Source of the DNA: Microtetraspora niveoalba
Lineage (GTDB): Bacteria > Actinomycetota > Actinomycetes > Streptosporangiales > Streptosporangiaceae
Assembly: GCF_001570405.1 (NCBI RefSeq)
Contig: NZ_BBYM01000027.1
Coordinates: 1-64,000, forward strand
Direction of reading: 5' to 3'
Length of the DNA: 64,000 bases
Shown: one piece after another, positions 45,957 through 61,743 of the stretch
How the letters are laid out: each line of letters opens with the position of its first letter
Position numbering within the stretch: position 1 is the first letter of the stretch
Notes under the pieces: model-generated
The model's database searches: none
What the model was told of the DNA's origin: nothing
What the model saw: only the letters and a program-made list of their open reading frames with translations
Translations under genes and position numbers: made by a program

Positions 45957-48293
45957 GTGAAGCCGCTCCCCCTGCACCTCGGCCGCCTGGAGCTGCGGCG
46001 GTTCACCCGGTCCCGGCTGACCCGGGTCGCGCTGGCGGGCGTCGTCATGCTGCCGCTGCTGTACGCGGGGCTGTACCTGTGGTCGTTCTGGGACCCGCAG
46101 GGCAACCTGAAGAACATCCCCGTCGCCCTCGTCGTGGAGGACCGGGCGGCGACGGCGGACGGCAAGACCGTGGACGCGGGCGGCGACCTGGCCCGCGAAC
46201 TGCAGGAGCGCGAGGTCTTCTCCTGGCACCGGACCGACGCCGCCGGAGCCGACCAGGGCATGCGCGACGGCACCTACTACCTGTCGCTGACGATCCCGCG
46301 CGACTTCAGCGCGAACCTCACCTCGCCCTCCGGCGACGGGCGGCCCCGTCCCGCCCTGCTCGGCGTACGCGTGGACACCGGGCGCAGCTACATCATGCGG
46401 ACCATCTCCGACGCCGTCTTCGACGAGGTGAAGGCGGCGGCCGGGCGCACCGCCGTGAAGGGGTACCTCGACCAGATCTTCCTGTCCTTCGCCGACCTGC
46501 ACGACGCCACCGCGAAGGCCGCGGACGGCGCGGACAAGCTCCACGACGGCTCGGCGAGCGCCCAGAAGGGCGCGATCAAGCTGGACAAGGGCCTCGGCAC
46601 CGCCCAGACCGCCGTGCGCAAGCTCTCCACCGGCGCGACCACGCTGCTGGACGGCTCGGGCACGCTCGCCCGCGGCCTGGACGAGGCGTACAAGGGCTCC
46701 ACCAAGCTGGCGGGGGGCCTCGCGACGGCCGGCAAGGGCGCGGCCGACCTGCGCGGCGGCCTGTCGGCCCTCGACAAGGGCGCGGCGAAGCTCGCCGAGG
46801 GCAACCGGCAGGCGTACGAGAACGTGCACGCGCTGGCCCCGACGATCAACCAGGCGGCGGACAAGTACGCGCCGATCCTCAAGGAGAACGGCCCCGCCAT
46901 CAGGTCGGCGGCGCTGGCGGTCGCCGAGGGCGCCGACACGATCGCGAACGCGCTCGGCGACCTGCCCGACGCCGTGCGGAACCAGGCCGGGGCGGCGCAG
47001 CGCGACCTGCGGGCCGTCGAGCGATGGCTGGACGCGCATCCCGACGCGGACCCGGAGCTGCGTTCCCTCGTGGGCCGCGCGTCCGGCTCGGCGGGCGAGC
47101 TGGCCGGTACAGCCGGGCGGCTGCGGGACAAGGTCGCGGCGCAGTCCGGCGCGGTGGACGACCTCGCCCGCAAGGCGCGCGCCCTCGCGTCCGACGCCCG
47201 CGCGCTCGCCGAGGCCGCGCCCGCGCTCGGGAACAGGCTGGACAAGGCCAGGGGCGACTTCAACACGCTGGACGCCGGGCTCAAGCGGCTCGCCAAGGGC
47301 GCCTCCGACCTGCACGACGGCACCGGCGAGGCGCTGAAGGGGGCGACCTCGCTCGCGGGTGGCATCGGCGAGCTGCGCGGCGGCGCCGGGACCCTGTCGG
47401 ACGGCCTGCGCAAGCTGGACGGCGGCGCGGAGCGGCTCACCGCCGGGCTCGGCACGCTCGCCTCGGGCGCGGGCAAGCTCGGCGACGGCATCGGCGAGTT
47501 GCGCGGCGGCGCCGGGAAGCTCGGCTCCGGGCTGGGCGAGCTGACCGACGGCTCCGGCGAACTGGCCGCGAGGCTCGGCGACGGCGCGGCCCGGATCCCG
47601 TCCTACGACGCCGCCGACCGCGGCGGCCGTACGGACGTGATGAGCGACCCGGTGCGGCTGGCCACCGAGGTGGACAACGAGGTGCCGAACTACGGGACCG
47701 GTTTCGCGCCGTTCTTCGTGCCGCTGGCGCTGTGGGTCGGGGCGATGGTGACGTACATGGTGCTGCGGCCGCTCAACCCCCGGCTGCTCGCCGGCTCCGC
47801 GCCCGCCTGGCGCACCGCCCTCGCGGGCTGGCTGCCCGGCGTGGCGATGGGGGCGCTGCAGGTCGCGGTGCTGCTCGCCGTGCTGCGGTTCGGCCTGGGC
47901 ATGGAGGCGGAGCGCTGGGCGGGGGCGGCCGCGTTCCTGCTGCTCACGGTGGCGGCGTTCCTCGCGATCGTGCAGGCGGTGAACGCGCTGGCCGGGCCGC
48001 CCGGCCGGGTGGTGGTGCTGGCGCTGCTGATGTTGCAGCTCACCTCGGCCGCCGGGACGTACCCGATCGAGACCTCGCCCGGGTTCTTCCAGACCATCTC
48101 GCCGTGGTTGCCGATGAGCTGGGTGGTGGCGGGGATGCGCCGGTTGATCAGTGGCGGCGACACGCTCGTGGTGTGGCAGGCTTGCGGCGTGCTTTCCGCC
48201 TTCGTCGCCGGCGGCCTCGCGCTGACCATGCTCGCCGTACGCGGGGGCCGCACCTGGACCATGCGCAGGCTCAAGCCGGAGCTGGCCCTGTGA
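45957..48293 (+). CDS. YhgE/Pip-family ABC-2-like membrane protein
   Basis: The 778-residue protein has one N-terminal membrane helix (VALAGVVMLPLLYAGLYLWSF), a very long extracytoplasmic region with many heptad-like KLxxGxxxL/GAxxLxxG repeats (from about residue 165 to 550), and five C-terminal helices. This is the layout of YhgE/Pip (phage infection protein, ESX-linked) proteins. I chose GTG 45957 because GAAGGA lies six bases upstream; a GTG overlapping the previous stop at 45894 is possible. It may export or secrete an unknown substrate with the upstream ATPase. Confidence 0.85.
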   Translation: MKPLPLHLGRLELRRFTRSRLTRVALAGVVMLPLLYAGLYLWSFWDPQGNLKNIPVALVVEDRAATADGKTVDAGGDLARELQEREVFSWHRTDAAGADQGMRDGTYYLSLTIPRDFSANLTSPSGDGRPRPALLGVRVDTGRSYIMRTISDAVFDEVKAAAGRTAVKGYLDQIFLSFADLHDATAKAADGADKLHDGSASAQKGAIKLDKGLGTAQTAVRKLSTGATTLLDGSGTLARGLDEAYKGSTKLAGGLATAGKGAADLRGGLSALDKGAAKLAEGNRQAYENVHALAPTINQAADKYAPILKENGPAIRSAALAVAEGADTIANALGDLPDAVRNQAGAAQRDLRAVERWLDAHPDADPELRSLVGRASGSAGELAGTAGRLRDKVAAQSGAVDDLARKARALASDARALAEAAPALGNRLDKARGDFNTLDAGLKRLAKGASDLHDGTGEALKGATSLAGGIGELRGGAGTLSDGLRKLDGGAERLTAGLGTLASGAGKLGDGIGELRGGAGKLGSGLGELTDGSGELAARLGDGAARIPSYDAADRGGRTDVMSDPVRLATEVDNEVPNYGTGFAPFFVPLALWVGAMVTYMVLRPLNPRLLAGSAPAWRTALAGWLPGVAMGALQVAVLLAVLRFGLGMEAERWAGAAAFLLLTVAAFLAIVQAVNALAGPPGRVVVLALLMLQLTSAAGTYPIETSPGFFQTISPWLPMSWVVAGMRRLISGGDTLVVWQACGVLSAFVAGGLALTMLAVRGGRTWTMRRLKPELAL

Positions 48294-48321: not shown

Positions 48322-48903
48322 GTGAGCCGCGAGGACACCAGGAGCCGCCTCTTCCGGGCGGCGGTCGAGCTGATCGCCGAGCAGGGGTTCGCCGGGACGA
48401 CGGTGGACGCGATCGCCGAGCGGGCGGGCGTGGCCAAGGGCACCGTGTTCTACAACTTCGGCAGCAAGGACGCGCTGTTCGCCGCCCTGCTCGACCACGG
48501 GATCCAGCGGCTCGCCCTCTCCCTGGCGGAGGCCGCCGAAGGTCCCACCGGCGCCTCCCCGCTGGCCCGGCTCGACGCGGTGGTGCTGGCGCAGCTCCGG
48601 TTCTTCGACGAGTACGGGCCGTTCGCCCGGGTGCTCTTCGGCGAGATGTGGCGCACGGCCTGGCAGGACGCGGTCGTGCGGCTCCGGGAGGGCGCGCTCG
48701 GCGTCTACGAGCGGGTCCTCGCGGACGCGGTCGCCGCCGGGGAACTGCGCGCGGGATTCGACACCGGGACCGCCGCGACCGCGCTGTTCGGCATGGTGCT
48801 GACGGTGTCGATCGAGCGGCGGGCGCTGCGCCCGGACCGTCCGGTGGAGGAGGTCCACGCCACGCTGGTCGAGCTGATCCACGGCCGGGTGGCCGGCGCG
48901 TGA
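48322..48903 (+). CDS. TetR-family repressor of the YhgE operon
   Basis: The N-terminus has a full TetR helix-turn-helix (RSRLFRAAVELIAEQGFAGTT, VDAIAERAGVAKGTVFYNFGSKDALF region), and the helical ligand domain completes 193 residues. GAGGAG precedes the GTG start. As the last gene of the exporter operon it would give simple negative feedback through the palindrome at the promoter; membrane-active compounds are common ligands of such regulators. Confidence 0.88.
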   Translation: MSREDTRSRLFRAAVELIAEQGFAGTTVDAIAERAGVAKGTVFYNFGSKDALFAALLDHGIQRLALSLAEAAEGPTGASPLARLDAVVLAQLRFFDEYGPFARVLFGEMWRTAWQDAVVRLREGALGVYERVLADAVAAGELRAGFDTGTAATALFGMVLTVSIERRALRPDRPVEEVHATLVELIHGRVAGA

Positions 48904-54318: not shown

Positions 54319-55908
54319 TCAGGTGGCGGCGGCCCGCATGGCGGTCTCCCTGGCCCACCGGTAGTCGGCCTTGCCCGCCGGCGAGCGGAGCACCTCCTCC
54401 ACGAACGCGTACGTCCGGGGCACCTTGTAGCCCGACAACCGCTGCCGGCAGTAGGCGTCGAGGTCCTCCCGGGTCGGCGCGGTCCCCTCGTACGGTTGGA
54501 CGACGGCGGCCACCCGGGCCCCCCACCGCTCGTCGGGGATGCCGGTGACGACGACGTCGAACACGGCCGGGTGGCCCTTGAGCACCGCCTCGACCTCCTC
54601 GGGGAAGACCTTCTCCCCTCCGGTGTTGACGCACTGGGAGCCGCGGCCGAAGACGCGGATGGTGCCGTCCTCCTCGACCAGGGCGAGGTCGCCGGTCAGC
54701 AGCCAGCGGGTGCCGTCCTCGTCGGTGACGAAGGTGCGGGCCGACTTCTCCGGATCCTTGTAGTACGCGGAGGCGATCCGCCCGGTCTTGGCCACGGTGC
54801 CCATCTCGCCGGATCCCGGCTTCACCGGGCGCAGCGCGTGGTCGAGCACGGCGATCGTCGAGTTGGCGTTGGGCTGGTATTTCATGCCGGACTCGGGCGA
54901 GGAGTCGGACAGCGCGGACGCGGTGTACCCCGACTCGGTGGAGCCGAAGTTGTCCACGATCATCACGTGCGGCAGCGCCTCCTGAAGGCGGTCGCGGACC
55001 GCCCCGGTCAGGATGGCGCCCGTGGAGCTGATCACGCCGAGTGAGGACAGGTCGTAGGAGCCCGACGCGATCTCCTCGGCGAGCGGGCGGGCCATCGCGT
55101 CGCCGGTGAGGTTGACGGTGAAGACGCCGTTGCGCTCGATCGCGCGCAGGGCGTCGGCCGCGTCGAACTTGCGGGTGTAGACGATGGTCCCGCCGAACCA
55201 CCAGGCGATGTACGTCGCCATCTGGGCCGCGCCGTGCATCAACGGGGCCGCCGCCATCATGATCAGCGGGCCGGAGTTCCTGGCCTGCTCGATCAGCGCT
55301 TCCGGCGTCTTCACCGGCTCGCCGTACGGGTTGCCCGCGCCGAAGGCCATGAAGAGGTCCTCGACCCGCCACATCACCCCCTTGGGCATGCCGGTCGTGC
55401 CGCCGGTGTAGATGATGTAGAGATCGTCGCCGGAGCGCGGCGGGAAGTCCCGGGTGGACGGGCTCCCCGCGAGCGCCGCCTCGTACGGCACCGCGCCGGG
55501 CACGCGGGACTCGCCGCCGACCGCGACGAGGTGGCGCAGCTCGGGCGCGTCCGGGGCGACGGCGGCGACCCGGTCGTCGAACTCGACGTCGAACAGGAGC
55601 GCCGCGATGTCGGAGTCGCGGTAGAGGTAGAGCAGCTCGGACTCGACGTACCGGTAGTTGACGTTCACCGGCACCGCGCGGATCTTCAGCGCTGCCAGCA
55701 GGCCGGTGACGTACTCCACCCCGTTGTACAGGTGGAGCCCCACGTGGCGGCCGGGGCCGATGCCGTGGGCGGACAGGTGGTGGGCCAGCCGGTTGGCCCG
55801 CTCGTCCAGGTCGGCGTAGGTCACGCGCTCGTCGCCGCAGACGACCGCCGTGCGGTCCCCGATCGCGTCGGCGAGCCCCTCGAACAGATCGGCGTGGTTG
55901 AACTCCAT
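54319..55908 (-). CDS. FadD19-like steroid side-chain acyl-CoA synthetase
   Basis: The enzyme activates a carboxylic acid to its CoA thioester through an adenylate. The 529-residue protein has the P-loop YTGGTTGMPKGVMW, GDAMARPL, the FGSTESGY motif and the hinge/TGDLAL segment. The C-terminal catalytic Lys lies in SPAGKADYRWA. Several stretches (VNVNYRYVESEL, TGGEKVFPEEVEAVLKGHP) read closely to mycobacterial FadD19, which activates sterol side-chain acids. GAAGAAGG precedes the ATG. It is the last gene of the sterol operon, 35 bases after the Ltp3-like gene. Confidence 0.85.
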   Translation of the reverse strand: MEFNHADLFEGLADAIGDRTAVVCGDERVTYADLDERANRLAHHLSAHGIGPGRHVGLHLYNGVEYVTGLLAALKIRAVPVNVNYRYVESELLYLYRDSDIAALLFDVEFDDRVAAVAPDAPELRHLVAVGGESRVPGAVPYEAALAGSPSTRDFPPRSGDDLYIIYTGGTTGMPKGVMWRVEDLFMAFGAGNPYGEPVKTPEALIEQARNSGPLIMMAAAPLMHGAAQMATYIAWWFGGTIVYTRKFDAADALRAIERNGVFTVNLTGDAMARPLAEEIASGSYDLSSLGVISSTGAILTGAVRDRLQEALPHVMIVDNFGSTESGYTASALSDSSPESGMKYQPNANSTIAVLDHALRPVKPGSGEMGTVAKTGRIASAYYKDPEKSARTFVTDEDGTRWLLTGDLALVEEDGTIRVFGRGSQCVNTGGEKVFPEEVEAVLKGHPAVFDVVVTGIPDERWGARVAAVVQPYEGTAPTREDLDAYCRQRLSGYKVPRTYAFVEEVLRSPAGKADYRWARETAMRAAAT

Positions 55909-55943
55909 CCCGGGGGCCTTCTTCCCTGCTGGTCTGGGGGTAC

Positions 55944-57092
55944 CTAGGGTTTCCGGTTGCTCACGATCCACATGGCGAAGAACTGGGCGCCTCCGCCGTA
56001 CGCGTGGCCGAGCGCGGTGGCGGCGCCCTCGACCTGGTGCTCCCCCGCCATGCCCCGCACCTGCAGCGCCGCCTCGGCGAACCTGATCAGCCCGGATGCG
56101 CCGATGGGGTTGGAGCTGAGCACGCCGCCGGAGGGGTTCCACGGGATGTCGCCGTCGAGCGCCGTGCTTCCGGCCTCGGTGAGCTTCCATCCCTCGTTCT
56201 CGGGGGCGAAGCCGAGGTTCTCCAGCCACATCGGCTCGTACCAGGAGAAGGGGACGTAGACCTCGGCGACGTCGATGTCCCTGCGCGGGTCGGAGATCCC
56301 GGCCTGGCGGTAGACGTCGGCGGCGCAGTCCTTGCCCGCCTGGGGGCTGACGGTCTCCCGCCCGGCCCGCGCGAGCGGCTCGGACCGCATGGCGGCGCCG
56401 TGGATCCAGGCGGGCGTCCCGGTGACCGCCTTCTCCGACGCCAGCACGATCGCGCAGGCGCCGTCGGAGGAGGGGCAGGTCTCCAGGTAGCGGATCGGCT
56501 CCCAGAGCATCGGGGTGGACTCCACCATCGCCCGGTCGATCCCGGGGATCCGCAGATGGGCGTAGGGGTTCTTCAGCGCGTTGCGCCGGTCCTTGACCGC
56601 GACCAGCGCGCCGATGTGGTCGGGCGCGCCCGACCTGCGCATGTACTCGCGGATGTGCGGGGCGAAGTAGCCGCCCGCGCCGACGACGAGCGAGGCGCCG
56701 AACGGCAGGTGCGTGGACAGAGCCCAGGTGGCGTTGGACTCCGACTGCTTCTCGAACGCCACGACGAGCACCCGGTCGTGGACGCCGCCCTGGATCAGGG
56801 ACGCGCCGACGAGCGCGGTCGAGCCCCCGACGGAGCCCGCCGTGTGGACGCGCATGACGGGCTTGCCCGCGCCGCCGAGCGCGTCGGCGAGGTACGCCTC
56901 CGGCATCATGACGCCCTCGAACAGGTCGGGGGCCTTGCCGACGACGACCGCGTCGATGTCGGCGAAGGTCAGCCCGGCGTCGTCGAGGGCGCGCTGCGCC
57001 GCCTCCCGGACCAGGCCGGCGATGGAGACGTCCAGGCGCTTGGTGGTGTAGCGGGTCTGCCCGACGCCGATGACGGCGCAGCGTTCACCCAC
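55944..57092 (-). CDS. Ltp3-like thiolase-fold protein (lipid-transfer/aldolase family)
   Basis: The 382-residue thiolase-fold protein has ALDDAGLTFADIDAVVVG and the C-terminal NPSGGVLSSNPIGASGLIRFAEAALQ and GHAYGGGAQFFAM motifs. At the position of the thiolase nucleophile Cys, the sequence HTAGSVGGSTAL has Ser87, so a normal thiolytic reaction is unlikely. Length and order match mycobacterial Rv3523 (Ltp3). Such proteins work with DUF35 partners in sterol side-chain cleavage. The GTG start overlaps the upstream gene by eight bases. Confidence 0.8.
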   Translation of the reverse strand: MGERCAVIGVGQTRYTTKRLDVSIAGLVREAAQRALDDAGLTFADIDAVVVGKAPDLFEGVMMPEAYLADALGGAGKPVMRVHTAGSVGGSTALVGASLIQGGVHDRVLVVAFEKQSESNATWALSTHLPFGASLVVGAGGYFAPHIREYMRRSGAPDHIGALVAVKDRRNALKNPYAHLRIPGIDRAMVESTPMLWEPIRYLETCPSSDGACAIVLASEKAVTGTPAWIHGAAMRSEPLARAGRETVSPQAGKDCAADVYRQAGISDPRRDIDVAEVYVPFSWYEPMWLENLGFAPENEGWKLTEAGSTALDGDIPWNPSGGVLSSNPIGASGLIRFAEAALQVRGMAGEHQVEGAATALGHAYGGGAQFFAMWIVSNRKP

Positions 57093-58149
57093 GTCCGGCT
57101 CCTTCCTGGGGGCGCGGCGCGGACTCCAGCACCGCGACGAGGTTCTGCTGGAGGCAGGGCCCCGAGGTCGCGTGCGCGACGGCGCGGCCGGCCCGGCCGT
57201 CGAGGATGCGCCGCGCGGCCTCGCCGAGGCGGATCAGCCCGGCCGCCATGACGGGGTTGGCCGCGAGCGGCCCGCCCGAGGGGTTGATCACCGTGTCCTC
57301 GGGAAGTTCGAGCGCCTCGCGCAGGATGAGCTCCTCGTGGCTGAACTGGACGTGCAGCTCGGCCACGTCCACGGGGGCCTTGCCGACGCCCGCGGCGCGG
57401 GCCGCGTCCGCCGCCGACGGCGACCGGGACAGGTCGCGGACGCCGAGGTAGTGCGGCTCCGCCCGGTGCGCGATGCCGCCGATGTAGGCGGGGTTCTCGG
57501 CCAGTTCCCGAGCCAGGTCCCCGGCGGCCAGCACGACCGCCGCCGCCCCGTCCGTGATCGGCGCGACGTCGTACGGCCGGAGCGGCTGGACCTCGGCGTC
57601 CTCTCCCGAGGGGTCGGGCAGGTCCAGTGCGTGCGGGTTGGCCCGGCCGTCGGCGCGGCTGCGCCGTACGATCTCGTCCAGGGCCGCCCGCAGATCCGGC
57701 CGGTCGCCTCCGAGCGCGGCGGCCTGCAGGGCGGCGTAGGAAACCTGGTCGAGGCCGAGCGGCGCGAGATAGTACGGGTCGAGCTGGAGCGTCATGATCT
57801 CCCGCAGGTCGCCGGTGGACGACTTGCCGAAGCCGTAGACGAGGGCGGAGTCGATGTCGCCGTGCTGGAGCCGCACCCACGCCTCGTACAGCGCGAACGC
57901 GGCGTCCATCTCGACGTGGCTCTCGCTGATCGGCGGCCACGCGCCGAGCGCGTCGAGCGCGGAGACGAACGAGAACGGCGCGCCGGCGAGGTAGTCGCAC
58001 GAGCCCGAGCAGGTGAAGCCGAACCGCGACAGCCCCGTCGCCCGGCGGACCTCGTCGATCACCGGATGCAGCATCTCGGCCTCGGTCAGGCCGGCGTCGT
58101 GGCCCGTGTGCGTGGTCTGGGCGAACGCCACGATCGCGACGTCGCGCAT
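57085..58149 (-). CDS. Ltp4-like thiolase-fold protein
   Basis: The 354-residue protein has a short thiolase fold with ESHVEMDAAFALYEAWVRLQ in place of the usual nucleophile segment, and VINPSGGPLAANPVMAAGLIRLGEAARRI plus ATSGPCLQQN at the end. No nucleophile Cys is seen in the first half at the expected place. Length and neighbours match mycobacterial Rv3522 (Ltp4). Its ATG shares one base with the stop of the DUF35 gene, so the two are tightly coupled and probably form a complex. Confidence 0.8.
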   Translation of the reverse strand: MRDVAIVAFAQTTHTGHDAGLTEAEMLHPVIDEVRRATGLSRFGFTCSGSCDYLAGAPFSFVSALDALGAWPPISESHVEMDAAFALYEAWVRLQHGDIDSALVYGFGKSSTGDLREIMTLQLDPYYLAPLGLDQVSYAALQAAALGGDRPDLRAALDEIVRRSRADGRANPHALDLPDPSGEDAEVQPLRPYDVAPITDGAAAVVLAAGDLARELAENPAYIGGIAHRAEPHYLGVRDLSRSPSAADAARAAGVGKAPVDVAELHVQFSHEELILREALELPEDTVINPSGGPLAANPVMAAGLIRLGEAARRILDGRAGRAVAHATSGPCLQQNLVAVLESAPRPQEGAGRG

Positions 58150-59096
58150 CACGCACCACCTCCCGGCGTTCCGGCGGAGAGATCGGCGTCGGGCTCGCCG
58201 GTGGGGGCGAACCACCGGATGTCGGCCATGGACATCGTGCGCTCCTCGGGGGGCACCCAGACGGCGCGCACCCGCATCCCCTGCCGCACCTCGTGCGCGG
58301 GGATGCCGCCGACCAGGGCGATCATCGGGATGTCGGCGCCGTCGAGCAGGATGTACGCGGAGACGAACGGCACCTCGGGGGCGCGCGGGTCGGGCAGGTT
58401 GTTGATGGCGAAGGTCGTGACGGTGCCGGTGTCGGCGACCTCCCGCTCCTCCTCGATGAGCGCGCCGCACGCCGGGCAGGAGGTGCGGTAGGGGACGTAG
58501 ACCTGGTCGCATCCGGCGCAGCGTCCGCCGAGGAGGACGCCGTCCCCGATCCTCTCCAGGAAGCGGGTGAGCGCCGCGCCGGGGCGCACGCGGTACTCGG
58601 TGCGTATCGGCGCCGTGATCATGGTGACCTCGGGGACGAAGCACTCGATGTCGGTGATGGTCCCGGAGGTCCGGTCCCTCCAGCGGGGCCGCACCCGCAT
58701 TCCGGGCCGCATCGCCTTCGGGCCGCCGGCGTCCACCGCGTGGACGAGCGCGGTGTCCGCGCCGTCCAGCCGGATCGTGGCCCAGGCGAACGGCCGGTCG
58801 AGGGGATGGGCCGGGCGCGGCGCGCTCACCCACGCCCACGCCTGGACGGTTCCGGCCGGGCCGACCTCGACGTACTCGCCGGTCACGGCCTCGCCGGTGT
58901 CCGGGTCGTACTCCAGAGGAGGCACCAGCACCCGGGCTCCGGCCGTGCGGACGCCGACGATGCGCCGGTCGCGCAGCTCGGTGAGGAAGCGGCCGATGAC
59001 CGGGCCGGTGCTGCGGGTGTAGCCGCCGGGGAACTCCAGGACGTGCCTGGCCTCCAGCGGGTGAGACGGCGGGTGAGACGGTGGGTCAGATGGCAC
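58149..59096 (-). CDS. DUF35/OB-fold protein, Rv3521-like
   Basis: The 315-residue protein has two OB-like halves. The second carries a rubredoxin-like zinc ribbon GRCAGCDQVYVPYRTSCPACG, followed by the DUF35 OB strand region (GTVTTFAINN). DUF35 proteins bind thiolase-fold partners and present acyl-CoA substrates, as with Ltp2 and ChsH2 in cholesterol degradation. The N-terminus has a short repeated PPSHP. It starts 11 bases inside the preceding synthetase gene and is followed by the two thiolase-fold genes in the same order as in Mycobacterium. Confidence 0.85.
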   Translation of the reverse strand: MPSDPPSHPPSHPLEARHVLEFPGGYTRSTGPVIGRFLTELRDRRIVGVRTAGARVLVPPLEYDPDTGEAVTGEYVEVGPAGTVQAWAWVSAPRPAHPLDRPFAWATIRLDGADTALVHAVDAGGPKAMRPGMRVRPRWRDRTSGTITDIECFVPEVTMITAPIRTEYRVRPGAALTRFLERIGDGVLLGGRCAGCDQVYVPYRTSCPACGALIEEEREVADTGTVTTFAINNLPDPRAPEVPFVSAYILLDGADIPMIALVGGIPAHEVRQGMRVRAVWVPPEERTMSMADIRWFAPTGEPDADLSAGTPGGGA

Positions 59097-60636
59097 GGTC
59101 CCTGCCCTCCCAGTAGGGGTCGCGGAGCTTGCGCTTGAGCAGCTTGCCGTTCGGCTCGCGCGGCATCTCGTCGATGAAGTCGATGCTCCTGGGCCACTTC
59201 ATCTTCGCCAGGCGGCCCTTGAGCGAGTCGAGGATCTCGGCGGCCAGCTCGGGTCCGGGTACGGACCCGGGCGCGGGCTCGACGATGGCCTTGATCTGCT
59301 CGCCCCACTCGTCGTCCGGGATGCCGAAGACGGCGGCATCGGCGACCTTGGGGTGGACGAGCAGCTCGTTCTCGATCTCGGCGGGGTAGATGTTGGCCCC
59401 GCCCGAGATGATCATGTCGGCCTTGCGGTCGCAGAGGAACAGGAAGCCGTCCTCGTCGAGGTAGCCGATGTCGCCGACCGTGAAGTAATCCCGCAGCCGG
59501 CCCGCCTCGGTCTTGGCCGGGTCGCCCTTGTACTCGAAGCGGACGCCGGCCATCTTCATGTAGATCGTGCCGGGGGTGCCGGTGGGCACCTCGTCGAGGT
59601 TGTCGTCGACGATGAGGATCTCGCTGATCGGCCAGGCCTTGCCCACCGTTCCGGGGTGCTTCTTCCAGTCCTCGGGGGTGGCGATCGTGCCGCCGCCCTC
59701 GGTGGCGGCGTAGTACTCGTAGATCACGTCGCCCCACCAGTCGAGCATCTGGAGCTTGACCGGCACCGGGCAGGGGGCGGCGGCGTGGATCATCCAGCGC
59801 AGCGAGGACAGGTCGTACTTCCGGCGGGTCTCCTCGGGCAGCGACAGCAGCCGCTTGAAGTGCGTCGGGACCATGTGGGAGTTGGTCACGCGGTGCCTCT
59901 CGGACAGCCGCAGCATCTCCTCGGCGTCCCACCGGTCCATGTAGACGAGCGTGTGGCCCATGTGCAGGGCGGTGCCGCCGAACTGCGTGACGGCGGTGTG
60001 GTAGCTCGGAGACGTGACCAGGTGGACGTTGGGCCGTCCCGGGGTGATCCCGAAGAACCCGAGCAGGAAGGACAGGAGCTCGGCGGAGTCGTCCGGGTCC
60101 AGGCCGCTGAGCGGCCGCCGTACTCCCTTGGGCCGGCCGGTGGTGCCCGAGGTGTAGTGCATGGTCGCCCCGGCGGTGCGGTCCTCGGGGAGGGTGTCCG
60201 GGCGGCCGTCGGTCAGGTCGGAGACGGGGCGGAAACCCTCGACCCGGCCGAAGGCGAAGCACCGCTCCGACGCGATGCCGGCCACCTCGGCGCCCCTCGT
60301 TCCCTCGGCCGCGTACCGCTCGTGGACGAAGAACGCCCTGGCGTCGCTGTCGGCGACGATGTAGCCGATCTCGGGACCGGTCAGGTGCCAGTTGACGGGG
60401 GTGAAGTACCACCCGGCCTGCAGCGCGGCGAGATAGAGCGCCAGGCCGTCCGCGCCGTTGGGCACCAGGCCGCAGATGCCGTCCCCCGGCCGCAGGCCCA
60501 GCTCGCGGAGGCCGTGGACCAGGCGGTTCGCCCGGGCGAGCAGGTCTCCCGCCCGGTGCCGCGTGCCGTCGGGGTCCACGGCGGCGATCCAGTCCGGGTC
60601 GGCCTGCGCGATCCTCCAGAAACCAAGCGAGCCCAT
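59086..60636 (-). CDS. Acyl-CoA synthetase (AMP-forming, FadD family)
   Basis: The protein adenylates a fatty or steroid acid and transfers it to CoA. Landmarks are TSGTTGRPKGV, YYAATEGGGTIA, the TVGDIGYLDEDGFLFLCDR hinge and the C-terminal catalytic Lys in REPNGKLLKR. It differs clearly from the FadD19-like enzyme of the same operon and resembles the general long-chain group. Of two close starts I prefer ATG 60636, because GGGAG lies eight bases upstream; ATG 60642 is only two bases from that motif. It is the first gene of the sterol operon. Confidence 0.85.
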   Translation of the reverse strand: MGSLGFWRIAQADPDWIAAVDPDGTRHRAGDLLARANRLVHGLRELGLRPGDGICGLVPNGADGLALYLAALQAGWYFTPVNWHLTGPEIGYIVADSDARAFFVHERYAAEGTRGAEVAGIASERCFAFGRVEGFRPVSDLTDGRPDTLPEDRTAGATMHYTSGTTGRPKGVRRPLSGLDPDDSAELLSFLLGFFGITPGRPNVHLVTSPSYHTAVTQFGGTALHMGHTLVYMDRWDAEEMLRLSERHRVTNSHMVPTHFKRLLSLPEETRRKYDLSSLRWMIHAAAPCPVPVKLQMLDWWGDVIYEYYAATEGGGTIATPEDWKKHPGTVGKAWPISEILIVDDNLDEVPTGTPGTIYMKMAGVRFEYKGDPAKTEAGRLRDYFTVGDIGYLDEDGFLFLCDRKADMIISGGANIYPAEIENELLVHPKVADAAVFGIPDDEWGEQIKAIVEPAPGSVPGPELAAEILDSLKGRLAKMKWPRSIDFIDEMPREPNGKLLKRKLRDPYWEGRDRAI

Positions 60637-60828
60637 GTCCATCGCTCCCTGTCCGGTGCGTTCGATGCGCCCGACCCGCGAGCCGAGGGCTCTGTCGTGG
60701 CGCGGTCTCTCCCCCTGATTTCCCCACAAATGACGCCAGGCTTCGTCGGCCCCTGGCCCGGCCGGGCGGTGTCAAACGAGAATCGGTTCTAGTGCGTTGC
60801 GGGCAGACTAACCCGGGCACCGACGCCG

Positions 60829-60842
60829 ATCAAGCGCTTGAT
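60829..60842. promoter_or_regulatory. KstR2-type palindrome, first copy
   Basis: ATCAAGCGCTTGAT is a perfect palindrome and fits the KstR2 consensus AnCAAGnnCTTGnT at every fixed position. It lies between the divergent synthetase and hydratase genes. KstR2 is the TetR-type repressor of late sterol (ring C/D) catabolism in Mycobacterium and Rhodococcus. Confidence 0.7.
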
Positions 60843-60898
60843 TGAGGGATCTGGCGGCGGCGGGCGGGGCCGATCTAGGATCAGGTTCTCCTCGCCTG

Positions 60899-60912
60899 AC
60901 CAAGCGCTTGAC
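60899..60912. promoter_or_regulatory. KstR2-type palindrome, second copy
   Basis: ACCAAGCGCTTGAC matches the KstR2 consensus at all fixed positions but the last. It is 70 bases from the first copy, so both face the same side of the helix roughly, and lies directly before the ribosome binding site of the hydratase gene. Binding here would block its translation start region and transcription. Confidence 0.65.
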
Positions 60913-60927
60913 TAAGCGGAGGTGTCC

Positions 60928-61743
60928 GTGGAACTCCTGCCGATCAGCACACCGCACTGCCGGGTCGAGAGGGACGGTCCCGTCGTGGTCGTCACGATGG
61001 ACCGCCCGGAGGCCAAAAACGCGCTCTCGACGGACATGCTGGTCGGCCTGGCCGACGCGTGGGCCTACATCTCGGCCGAGCCGGAGGTGCGCGTGGGCAT
61101 CCTGACCGGCGCGAACGGCACGTTCTGCGCCGGGGCCGACCTCAAGGCGATGGGCTCGCCCTCCGGCGACGAGCAGGTGCGGCGGCGGGCCGCGGAGATC
61201 GGGGACTACCACTGGAAGGGCCTGCTGCGCGACACCGCGTCGCTGCCCACCAAGCCGATCATCTGCGCCGTCGAGGGGTACGCCGTGGCCGGCGGCACCG
61301 AGCTGCTCGTCGGGACCGACCTGCGGATCGTCGGCGAGAGCGCCACCCTCGGCCTGTTCGAGGCCCGGCGGGCGCTCTTCCCGATGGGCGGCTGCGCCAT
61401 CCGGCTCCCGCGCCAGATCCCGTACGCGTTCGCGATGGACATCCTGCTCACCGGCCGCGCGATCAGCGCGTCCGAGGCGCTGGCGATGGGCCTGGTCAAC
61501 CGGGTCGTCCCGGACGGCACGGCGCTGGAGAGCGCGCGCGAGCTGGCCGCCGAGGTGGCCGCGTGCGGGCCGCTCGCCGTCCAGGCCATCCTGCGGACGT
61601 ACCGCGCGACCCTGGGGATGGGCGAGGCCGAGGCGCTGGAGGTCTCGGACGCCATCGGATGGCCGGTCATCGGCTCGGAGGACGCCAAGGAGGGCGCCCG
61701 CGCCTTCCGGGAGAAGCGCCCGCCGGTTTACCGGGGGAAGTGA
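60928..61743 (+). CDS. EchA19-like enoyl-CoA hydratase
   Basis: Crotonase-fold hydratases add water to the double bond of 2-enoyl-CoA. The 271-residue protein has the oxyanion motifs NGTFCAGADLKAMG and VEGYAVAGGTELLVGTDLRI, and the catalytic Glu in GLFEARRALFPMGG. The C-terminal SEDAKEGARAFREKRPP is close to mycobacterial EchA19, which hydrates sterol side-chain enoyl-CoA. The start is the GTG at 60928, five bases after GGAGG; the GTG six bases earlier overlaps that site. It is divergent from the synthetase operon. Confidence 0.87.
   Translation: MELLPISTPHCRVERDGPVVVVTMDRPEAKNALSTDMLVGLADAWAYISAEPEVRVGILTGANGTFCAGADLKAMGSPSGDEQVRRRAAEIGDYHWKGLLRDTASLPTKPIICAVEGYAVAGGTELLVGTDLRIVGESATLGLFEARRALFPMGGCAIRLPRQIPYAFAMDILLTGRAISASEALAMGLVNRVVPDGTALESARELAAEVAACGPLAVQAILRTYRATLGMGEAEALEVSDAIGWPVIGSEDAKEGARAFREKRPPVYRGK

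Follow-up and report, generated by a model that had tools for sequence, protein, structure and literature searches.

A sterol side-chain gene module of Microtetraspora niveoalba carries KstR2-type palindromes that probably serve a paralogous TetR regulator

In the actinomycete Microtetraspora niveoalba (Streptosporangiaceae; genome of 8.47 Mb in 98 contigs), a sterol side-chain degradation module with a shared divergent promoter is located at positions 54319-61743 of the window, which is the whole 64,000-nucleotide stretch analysed (contig NZ_BBYM01000027.1, positions 1 to 64,000). Five genes form a minus-strand run, FadDx-DUF35-Ltp4-Ltp3-FadD19, extending from 60636 down to 54319 with overlaps or short gaps and divergent from EchA19. 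The first gene, here called FadDx (59086-60636), encodes a FadD4-type acyl-CoA synthetase (AMP-binding, 199 bits); its nearest models are PRK12406 (487 bits, below the cut-off of 701) and FadD4 (also below cut-off), and its position is kept in all six relatives compared (L029-L034; labels in G, C, L and f are our handles for genomes, contigs, loci and families, this genome being G000). It is followed by a DUF35/ChsH2-like OB-fold and Zn-ribbon protein (58149-59096), with OB_ChsH2_C and zf-ChsH2 domains and, in a solved-structure search, a weak match to ChsH2(DUF35) 6ok1 (31.9 bits). Next come two thiolase-fold aldol lyases, one Ltp4-like (57085-58152; PRK07937, lipid-transfer protein, 509.1 bits, cut-off 419; 64-82% identity in the same six relatives) and one Ltp3-like (55944-57092; PRK08313, 685.3 bits, cut-off 514; 80-90% identity in the five relatives L030-L034). 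The run ends in a FadD19-like steroid acyl-CoA ligase (54319-55908; PRK07798, 692.5 bits, cut-off 543). On the plus strand, the EchA19-like enoyl-CoA hydratase (60928-61743) scores 352.8 bits with PRK07799 (cut-off 316) and 334.9 bits with the EchA19 equivalog, below the cut-off of 400; its best solved relatives are EchA19 (6wyi, 257.7 bits) and 4f47. The nearest named relatives of echA19 are from Sphaerisporangium (a metagenome-assembled genome, 84%), Acrocarpospora (83%) and Nonomuraea (77%), then Actinoallomurus and Actinomadura (72-75%).

The initial annotation had recognised a FadD19, Ltp3, Ltp4, DUF35 and EchA19 gene set, which the family scans confirm and to which they add FadDx as a sixth gene. 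All five of those families are present, with DUF35-Ltp4-Ltp3 collinear as in the mycobacterial-type set; this order, correctly read before, recurs in nine loci outside the Streptosporangiaceae (L041, L043, L047, L050, L051, L052, L055, L057 and L058). FadD19 is not the divergent partner of echA19 here: FadDx holds that place and FadD19 ends the run, unlike loci such as L040 and L043, where FadD19 stands beside EchA19. The models PRK07798 and PRK08313 do not carry the names FadD19 and Ltp3, which we take to be theirs; the names agree with the neighbourhood, since fadD19 with echA19, and ltp4 with ltp3, form adjacent pairs in other loci. In Nocardioides simplex, the excerpted text of PMC7807495 likewise gives adjacent locus tags for fadD19 and echA19 and for ltp4 and ltp3. 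As FadD19, Ltp3 and Ltp4 are required for C24-branched sterols in mycobacteria or rhodococci, according to the part of PMC6273163 consulted, the gene run together with EchA19 is most likely a plant-sterol (C24-branched) side-chain module.

Two palindromes lie within the 291-bp gap between FadDx and EchA19. Putative operator 1 (ATCAAGCGCTTGAT, 60829-60842) matches AnCAAGnnCTTGnT exactly, while putative operator 2 (ACCAAGCGCTTGAC, 60899-60912), directly in front of the likely ribosome-binding site of echA19, has one mismatch; the pair of KstR2-type palindromes reported by the initial annotation is thus present, with one copy exact and the other not. The genome as a whole contains three exact copies of AnCAAGnnCTTGnT, one of them inside a predicted gene on C35, and eight of the core CAAGCGCTTG, two of which are in the 291-bp gap. 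The exact motif was absent from all 100 shuffles of the 64-kb window, and a chance match is ruled out by the shuffles and by conservation across relatives.

A scan for kstR and kstR2 genes found a syntenic KstR2 (T26, contig C26), two further KstR2-group TetRs (T4 on C4 and T35 on C35) and a KstR-like TetR on C3 (best solved match KstR, 104.5 bits); C26 also encodes a 3bjb-like TetR. T26 (L025:7257-7880) is regarded as the syntenic KstR2 because it lies directly between genes for a FadA6-type thiolase (PRK07801, 700.7 bits) and an IpdF-type short-chain dehydrogenase/reductase (SDR; PRK07831, 454.4 bits), names that we assume for these NCBIfam models. In 12 of 14 T26-type loci (not L148 and L149) there is a palindrome CTAACAA-N4-TTG[GA]TAG, mostly in the promoter divergent from the IpdF-type gene; the copy in this genome is CTACCAAACAATTGTTAG. 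T4 (L027:3963-4586) is 67% identical to T26 and has no thiolase/SDR pair beside it, and no palindrome of the T26 kind was found near the T4-type loci L157 and L158.

T35 (L022:8860-9507, minus strand) has a TetR_C_24 domain, and its nearest solved chains are 2ibd and the KstR2 structure 4w1u. It has no fadA6 or ipdF neighbours in this genome, being flanked by genes for a DNA-alkylation enzyme and a PhoD-like protein; at L113, the gene divergent to T35 encodes a thiolase with 479 bits to the FadA6-type model (cut-off 591), and by eye the same arrangement is present at L114 and L116. The core CAAGCGCTTG stands upstream of T35 itself, in this genome and in 33 of 35 fetched loci of at least 73% identity (22 exact, 11 with one mismatch), and in 8 of 10 more diverged loci. 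The recognition helix reads ILSGSLYHHF in every T35 compared (38/38 at 73% identity or more, 8/8 at 58-72%) and in all 14 KstR2 proteins of Mycobacteriales and f28, whereas the 24 T26/T4-type proteins all have [IM]L[GA]GSLYYHF. Residues R162, W166 and R170 of KstR2 are presumably those that contact HIP-CoA. The triad aligned with them is R-W-R in 46 of 46 T35 proteins and in 13 of 14 from Mycobacteriales and f28; in the T26/T4 type it is R-W-[STNG] (24/24). In a 74-row tree, T35 and its relatives (98/89, 33 rows) are separate from T26/T4 and f20 (97/98, 24 rows); these two clades are joined at 91/87 apart from the Mycobacteriales sequences, so that T35 falls outside the Mycobacteriales KstR2 clade in this tree, the deep root of which is uncertain because the outgroup is long. 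At three loci whose TetR shares 84-93% identity with KstR2 of M. tuberculosis, CGAGCAAGCGCTTGGTTG is present, in line with what the excerpt of PMC3068626 gives. The helix and operator of T35 thus appear KstR2-like, the operator being assigned by co-occurrence, and the syntenic-KstR2 clade of the Streptosporangiaceae has an altered helix and a different conserved operator. Four f19 loci (L305, L307, L308 and L313) contain T35-like TetRs of 51-53% identity with CAAGCGCTTG upstream and, by eye, no adjoining fadA6 or ipdF.

The co-occurrence was assessed in 200 genomes of the family, 103 of which have an EchA19 match at E<=1e-85, a palindrome being counted when it lay within 330 bp upstream of echA19. 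Where T35 of at least 73% identity is encoded, 64 of 65 genomes, from 17 genera, have the palindrome at echA19 (56 exact, 8 with one mismatch). It is found in none of 36 genomes, from 10 genera, in which T35 is 58-70% identical, and in neither of the two genomes without T35. In 41 of the 65 genomes, no KstR2-group TetR other than T35 was detected at E<=1e-40; the palindrome is still present in 40 of them. This within-clade absence of T26 and T4 is the informative contrast, and it argues against T26 and T4 rather than proving T35.

A putative, degenerate KstR-type operator (K1b, GAGAATCGGTTCTA) is located at 60778-60791, with two mismatches to TnnAACnnGTTnnA, which we take to be the KstR motif. 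When the 64 palindrome-bearing genomes were scanned without a limit on the spacing to the palindrome, a KstR-type match of this second type was found in 48, across genera. Its start is 50-55 bp from the palindrome in 45 of the 48 (59, 62 and 415 bp in the others), while the distance from palindrome to echA19 ranges from 25 to 258 bp in the 47 genomes where the two sites are close. Among the 38 genomes that lack T35 of at least 73% identity, 35 have two degenerate KstR-type sites (of the TAGATCACGTTCTC and TAGAATCTGTTCTT types), 55 bp apart in 32, and the echA19 promoter of G146 contains all three sites, at -168, -113 and -60. The initial annotation had proposed a rewired regulon, side-chain genes having passed from KstR to KstR2. 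The gain of KstR2-type control, absent from these genes in Mycobacterium, stands; the comparison suggests that it was mostly added to KstR-type control, not swapped for it. At the window promoter the persisting KstR-type site suggests addition, and on this ground replacement there was rejected.

Between the KstR-type site and operator 1, a predicted -10 hexamer (TAGTCT, 60805-60810, minus strand) is followed upstream by a predicted -35 hexamer (TTGATC, 60828-60833, minus strand) that overlaps operator 1. In all 47 genomes that could be anchored in this way, a lower-strand TANNNT is found 17 bp (20 genomes) or 18 bp (27 genomes) from the hexamer overlapping the palindrome, and in none at spacers of 9-16 or 19-27 bp. 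The hexamer pair may be the leftward FadDx-FadD19 promoter, with operator 1 over its -35, although we are less sure of this.

Elsewhere in this genome, CAAGCGCTTG is found upstream of a cytochrome P450 gene on C3, the product of which is CYP125 (507 bits to a CYP125 ancestor, 370 to CYP125) and which has an exact KstR-type site 26 bp from the palindrome, start to start. On C13 it lies 13 bp before the ATG of a DAPDH-like gene, a start also used by the relative L343; this gene is followed by a CMD gene and by a cholesterol oxidase gene, the product of which scores 761 bits to 1coy but just 100 bits against one of the NCBIfam models for cholesterol oxidase (cut-off 850). The remaining copies are at the start of an HD-domain gene (one) and inside predicted genes (two). 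Exact TnnAACnnGTTnnA is found at C3, at C13 and in the stretch to the right of the window.

The gene context of every exact site was surveyed in this genome and seven others. The palindrome is at echA19 in all eight; at T35 in seven, the G018 site having one mismatch; at the DAPDH-CMD-cholesterol-oxidase operon in six (G000, G001, G002, G003, G064 and G018); at CYP125 in four (G000, G001, G003 and G030); and at an HsaB-like reductase gene in three (G003, G064 and G030), this genome having one mismatch there. G034, a single contig of 7.5 Mb, has three sites: echA19, T35 and one other. All exact sites were also examined in three genomes with a diverged T35, which have 0, 2 and 3, none at echA19. 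In G110 two of them flank T35 and one is elsewhere; in G143 one is just past the 3' end of T35 and one is upstream of an alcohol dehydrogenase gene, followed by a thiolase fragment 78% identical to the steroid 3-ketoacyl-CoA thiolase of M. niveoalba (PRK07850, 651.6 bits).

Some further sites were observed in the course of this survey. G030 has 21 copies of CAAGCGCTTG (L320-L336), the other surveyed genomes having 3 to 11; some are paired, for example before an Ltp-like thiolase gene in L325, and the regulon is apparently expanded. The HD_3-domain hydrolase gene (L020:7231-7911; G000:C5, about 79230) has CAAGCGCTTG at its start in five of the eight genomes (G000, G001, G002, G003 and G064). 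On the same contig as T35, ATAACAAGCGTTTGCTTG (L356:9991; G000:C35, about 85990) precedes a gene for an acyl-CoA dehydrogenase, the closest model of which is IpdE2 (225 bits, cut-off 450). To the right of the window, three KstR-type sites (L028:1973, 2055 and 6530; G000:C27), two exact and one with one mismatch, are found by a nitronate-monooxygenase-like gene and between PorA-like and acyltransferase-3 genes; the sterol regulon may continue on this side.

Judged from the sequence comparisons, the palindromes are probably operators of T35, and the side-chain module would be repressed by two inputs, one from a KstR-type regulator and one from T35. Several observations weigh against this. The association between T35 and the site is close to a single evolutionary event, as it tracks the clade split. 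G152 has T35 but no palindrome at echA19, the T35 promoters L122 and L209 lack it, and 20 of 85 genomes with T35 of at least 73% identity have no echA19 match, so that T35 has another role. In most surveyed genomes some exact sites are inside genes or by genes without a sterol tie. With a matrix built from ten T35 own-promoter sites, the window operators score 12.6 and 11.4 of a maximum of 31.4, against 26.8 for the cholesterol-oxidase site. The ligand triad is mixed in nine T35-like proteins of less than 58% identity. No KstR-type match was recognised in 16 of the 64 palindrome-bearing genomes, where control may have been swapped rather than added. A strict sigma-70 consensus and terminator scan reported no match, and for this reason the leftward promoter is one that we only infer. 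Finally, T26 usually gives E-values of no better than about 1e-45 to 1e-57 when T35 is the query, and the 1e-40 threshold may have missed a few T26 proteins; when seven of the 41 genomes (G006, G008, G030, G034, G036, G077 and G085) were searched with T26 directly, no T26 was found, with G006 giving T35 itself only.

Control by KstR2 proper, as the initial annotation had it, would mean that the syntenic regulator T26, or its near copy T4, binds both palindromes and has taken over the side-chain genes. Both proteins are encoded in this genome, the palindrome equals the KstR2 motif in the excerpt of Kendall 2010 (PMC3068626), and in G025 AAAGCAAGCGCTTGTTAG occurs just after the FadA6-like gene of the T26 cluster (L142). 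However, the operator conserved at T26 loci has a different core, its recognition helix is not that of T35 and mycobacterial KstR2, and the palindrome persists in 40 of the 41 T35-clade genomes where neither T26 nor T4 is detected at E<=1e-40; furthermore, 24 genomes that combine a second KstR2-type TetR with a diverged T35 have no palindrome at echA19. T26 or T4 as main binder was rejected on operator core, helix and palindrome persistence, and we consider this explanation unlikely: of the earlier claim the KstR2-type palindrome remains, with the paralogue T35 in place of the regulator of the fadA6-kstR2-ipdF cluster as the likely binder. Somewhat less probable still is that T35 and T26 both bind, in overlapping regulons that share intermediate sites such as ATAACAAGCGTTTGGTAG, which stands upstream of the HsaB-like reductase gene (L022:16440) where the three genomes named above have exact CAAGCGCTTG. 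The points made against T26 apply equally here, and 56 of the 64 palindrome-bearing genomes have an exact GCGC core at echA19. TetR operators resemble one another, and the palindromes might be bound by a TetR that is not of the KstR2 group, or be functionless promoter remnants; conservation over 17 genera, the nearly fixed spacing to the KstR-type site despite a variable distance to echA19, and the identical palindrome at the promoter of T35 make this very improbable.

In the preferred model, with T35 as the binder, this protein, encoded elsewhere, on C35, would repress both echA19 and FadDx-FadD19 through the two palindromes, and would also repress its own gene; in this genome and some relatives, CYP125 and the cholesterol-oxidase operon would be further targets. 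Less surely, operator 1 would cover the -35 of the FadDx-DUF35-Ltp4-Ltp3-FadD19 promoter, operator 2 would lie in the echA19 leader and the KstR-type site would be near the start of the leftward transcript. The operons would be fully expressed only once a side-chain acyl-CoA had released KstR and a steroid-derived acyl-CoA had released T35; for KstR2 the effector is HIP-CoA, according to the excerpted text of PMC7807495. The syntenic KstR2 of the family would use another operator, and T35 would keep the mycobacterial-type specificity, extended to early sterol genes. A more far-reaching version, which is possible but doubtful, is a handover of operator specificity: the syntenic KstR2 would have changed its helix and operator, while T35 would have kept the mycobacterial-type specificity with the residues presumed to hold HIP-CoA and captured cholesterol oxidase, CYP125 and the side-chain genes. 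Entry into the pathway would then depend on a product of late ring degradation, combined with KstR as an AND gate.

The KstR regulon of mycobacteria includes the same gene families, fadD19-echA19 and ltp4/ltp3 (Rv3521-Rv3523, a pairing of numbers and names that we assume), with the same DUF35-Ltp4-Ltp3 order, and a degenerate KstR-type site is kept in M. niveoalba; unlike in that regulon, FadD19 has moved to the end of the run, FadDx is at the divergent promoter and there are additional CAAGCGCTTG operators. For Nocardioides simplex, the excerpt of PMC7807495 puts the whole of the following set under KstR: cyp125, fadD19, echA19, ltp3, ltp4 and cholesterol oxidase. With the KstR2 (Rv3557c/MSMEG_6009) regulon the module shares the AnCAAGnnCTTGnT operator, and T35 shares the recognition helix and the TetR_C_24 domain. 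That regulon consists of ring C/D (HIP) degradation genes, whereas the window genes belong to side-chain families; here the palindrome is found at side-chain genes, at CYP125 and at cholesterol-oxidase genes, and T35 belongs to another clade and has other neighbours. For M. tuberculosis, M. smegmatis and R. jostii, the consulted part of PMC3068626 gives the KstR2 motif as predicted at three promoters near kstR2. A third TetR besides KstR and KstR2 is described in the excerpt of PMC10398937: KstR3 of the Mycolicibacterium neoaurum HBC operon acts on the side-chain branch genes atf1, chsH4 and chsE6. Unlike T35 it is a local operon regulator, and the two are likened by description, not by sequence or operator. 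Among the literature matches listed, no paper deals with KstR2 in the Streptosporangiaceae, which is weak evidence of absence.

Apart from the module, the window encodes a TetR with a weak TetR_C_24 match (48322-48903, 31 bits) after the gene for a 778-amino-acid ABC-2-type membrane protein (45957-48293). A tRNA scan gave no match.

Gene set, operator sequence and regulator family are thus each known already, and what is new is their combination, which is conserved across genera. In descriptions of the pathway, the early and side-chain steps fall to KstR and those of rings C/D to KstR2. Early sterol genes that carry a conserved operator of KstR2 type, best assigned to a paralogue while the syntenic KstR2 has a different one, offer a natural case of TetR operator evolution in which three states can be read: helix, operator and target set. 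When sterol regulons are predicted outside the Mycobacteriales, the genes found in a genome such as this one with the mycobacterial KstR2 motif would probably be those that a different protein controls. Strains able to cleave C24-branched sterol side chains have industrial uses, and an additional repressor would mean one more block to lift in them.

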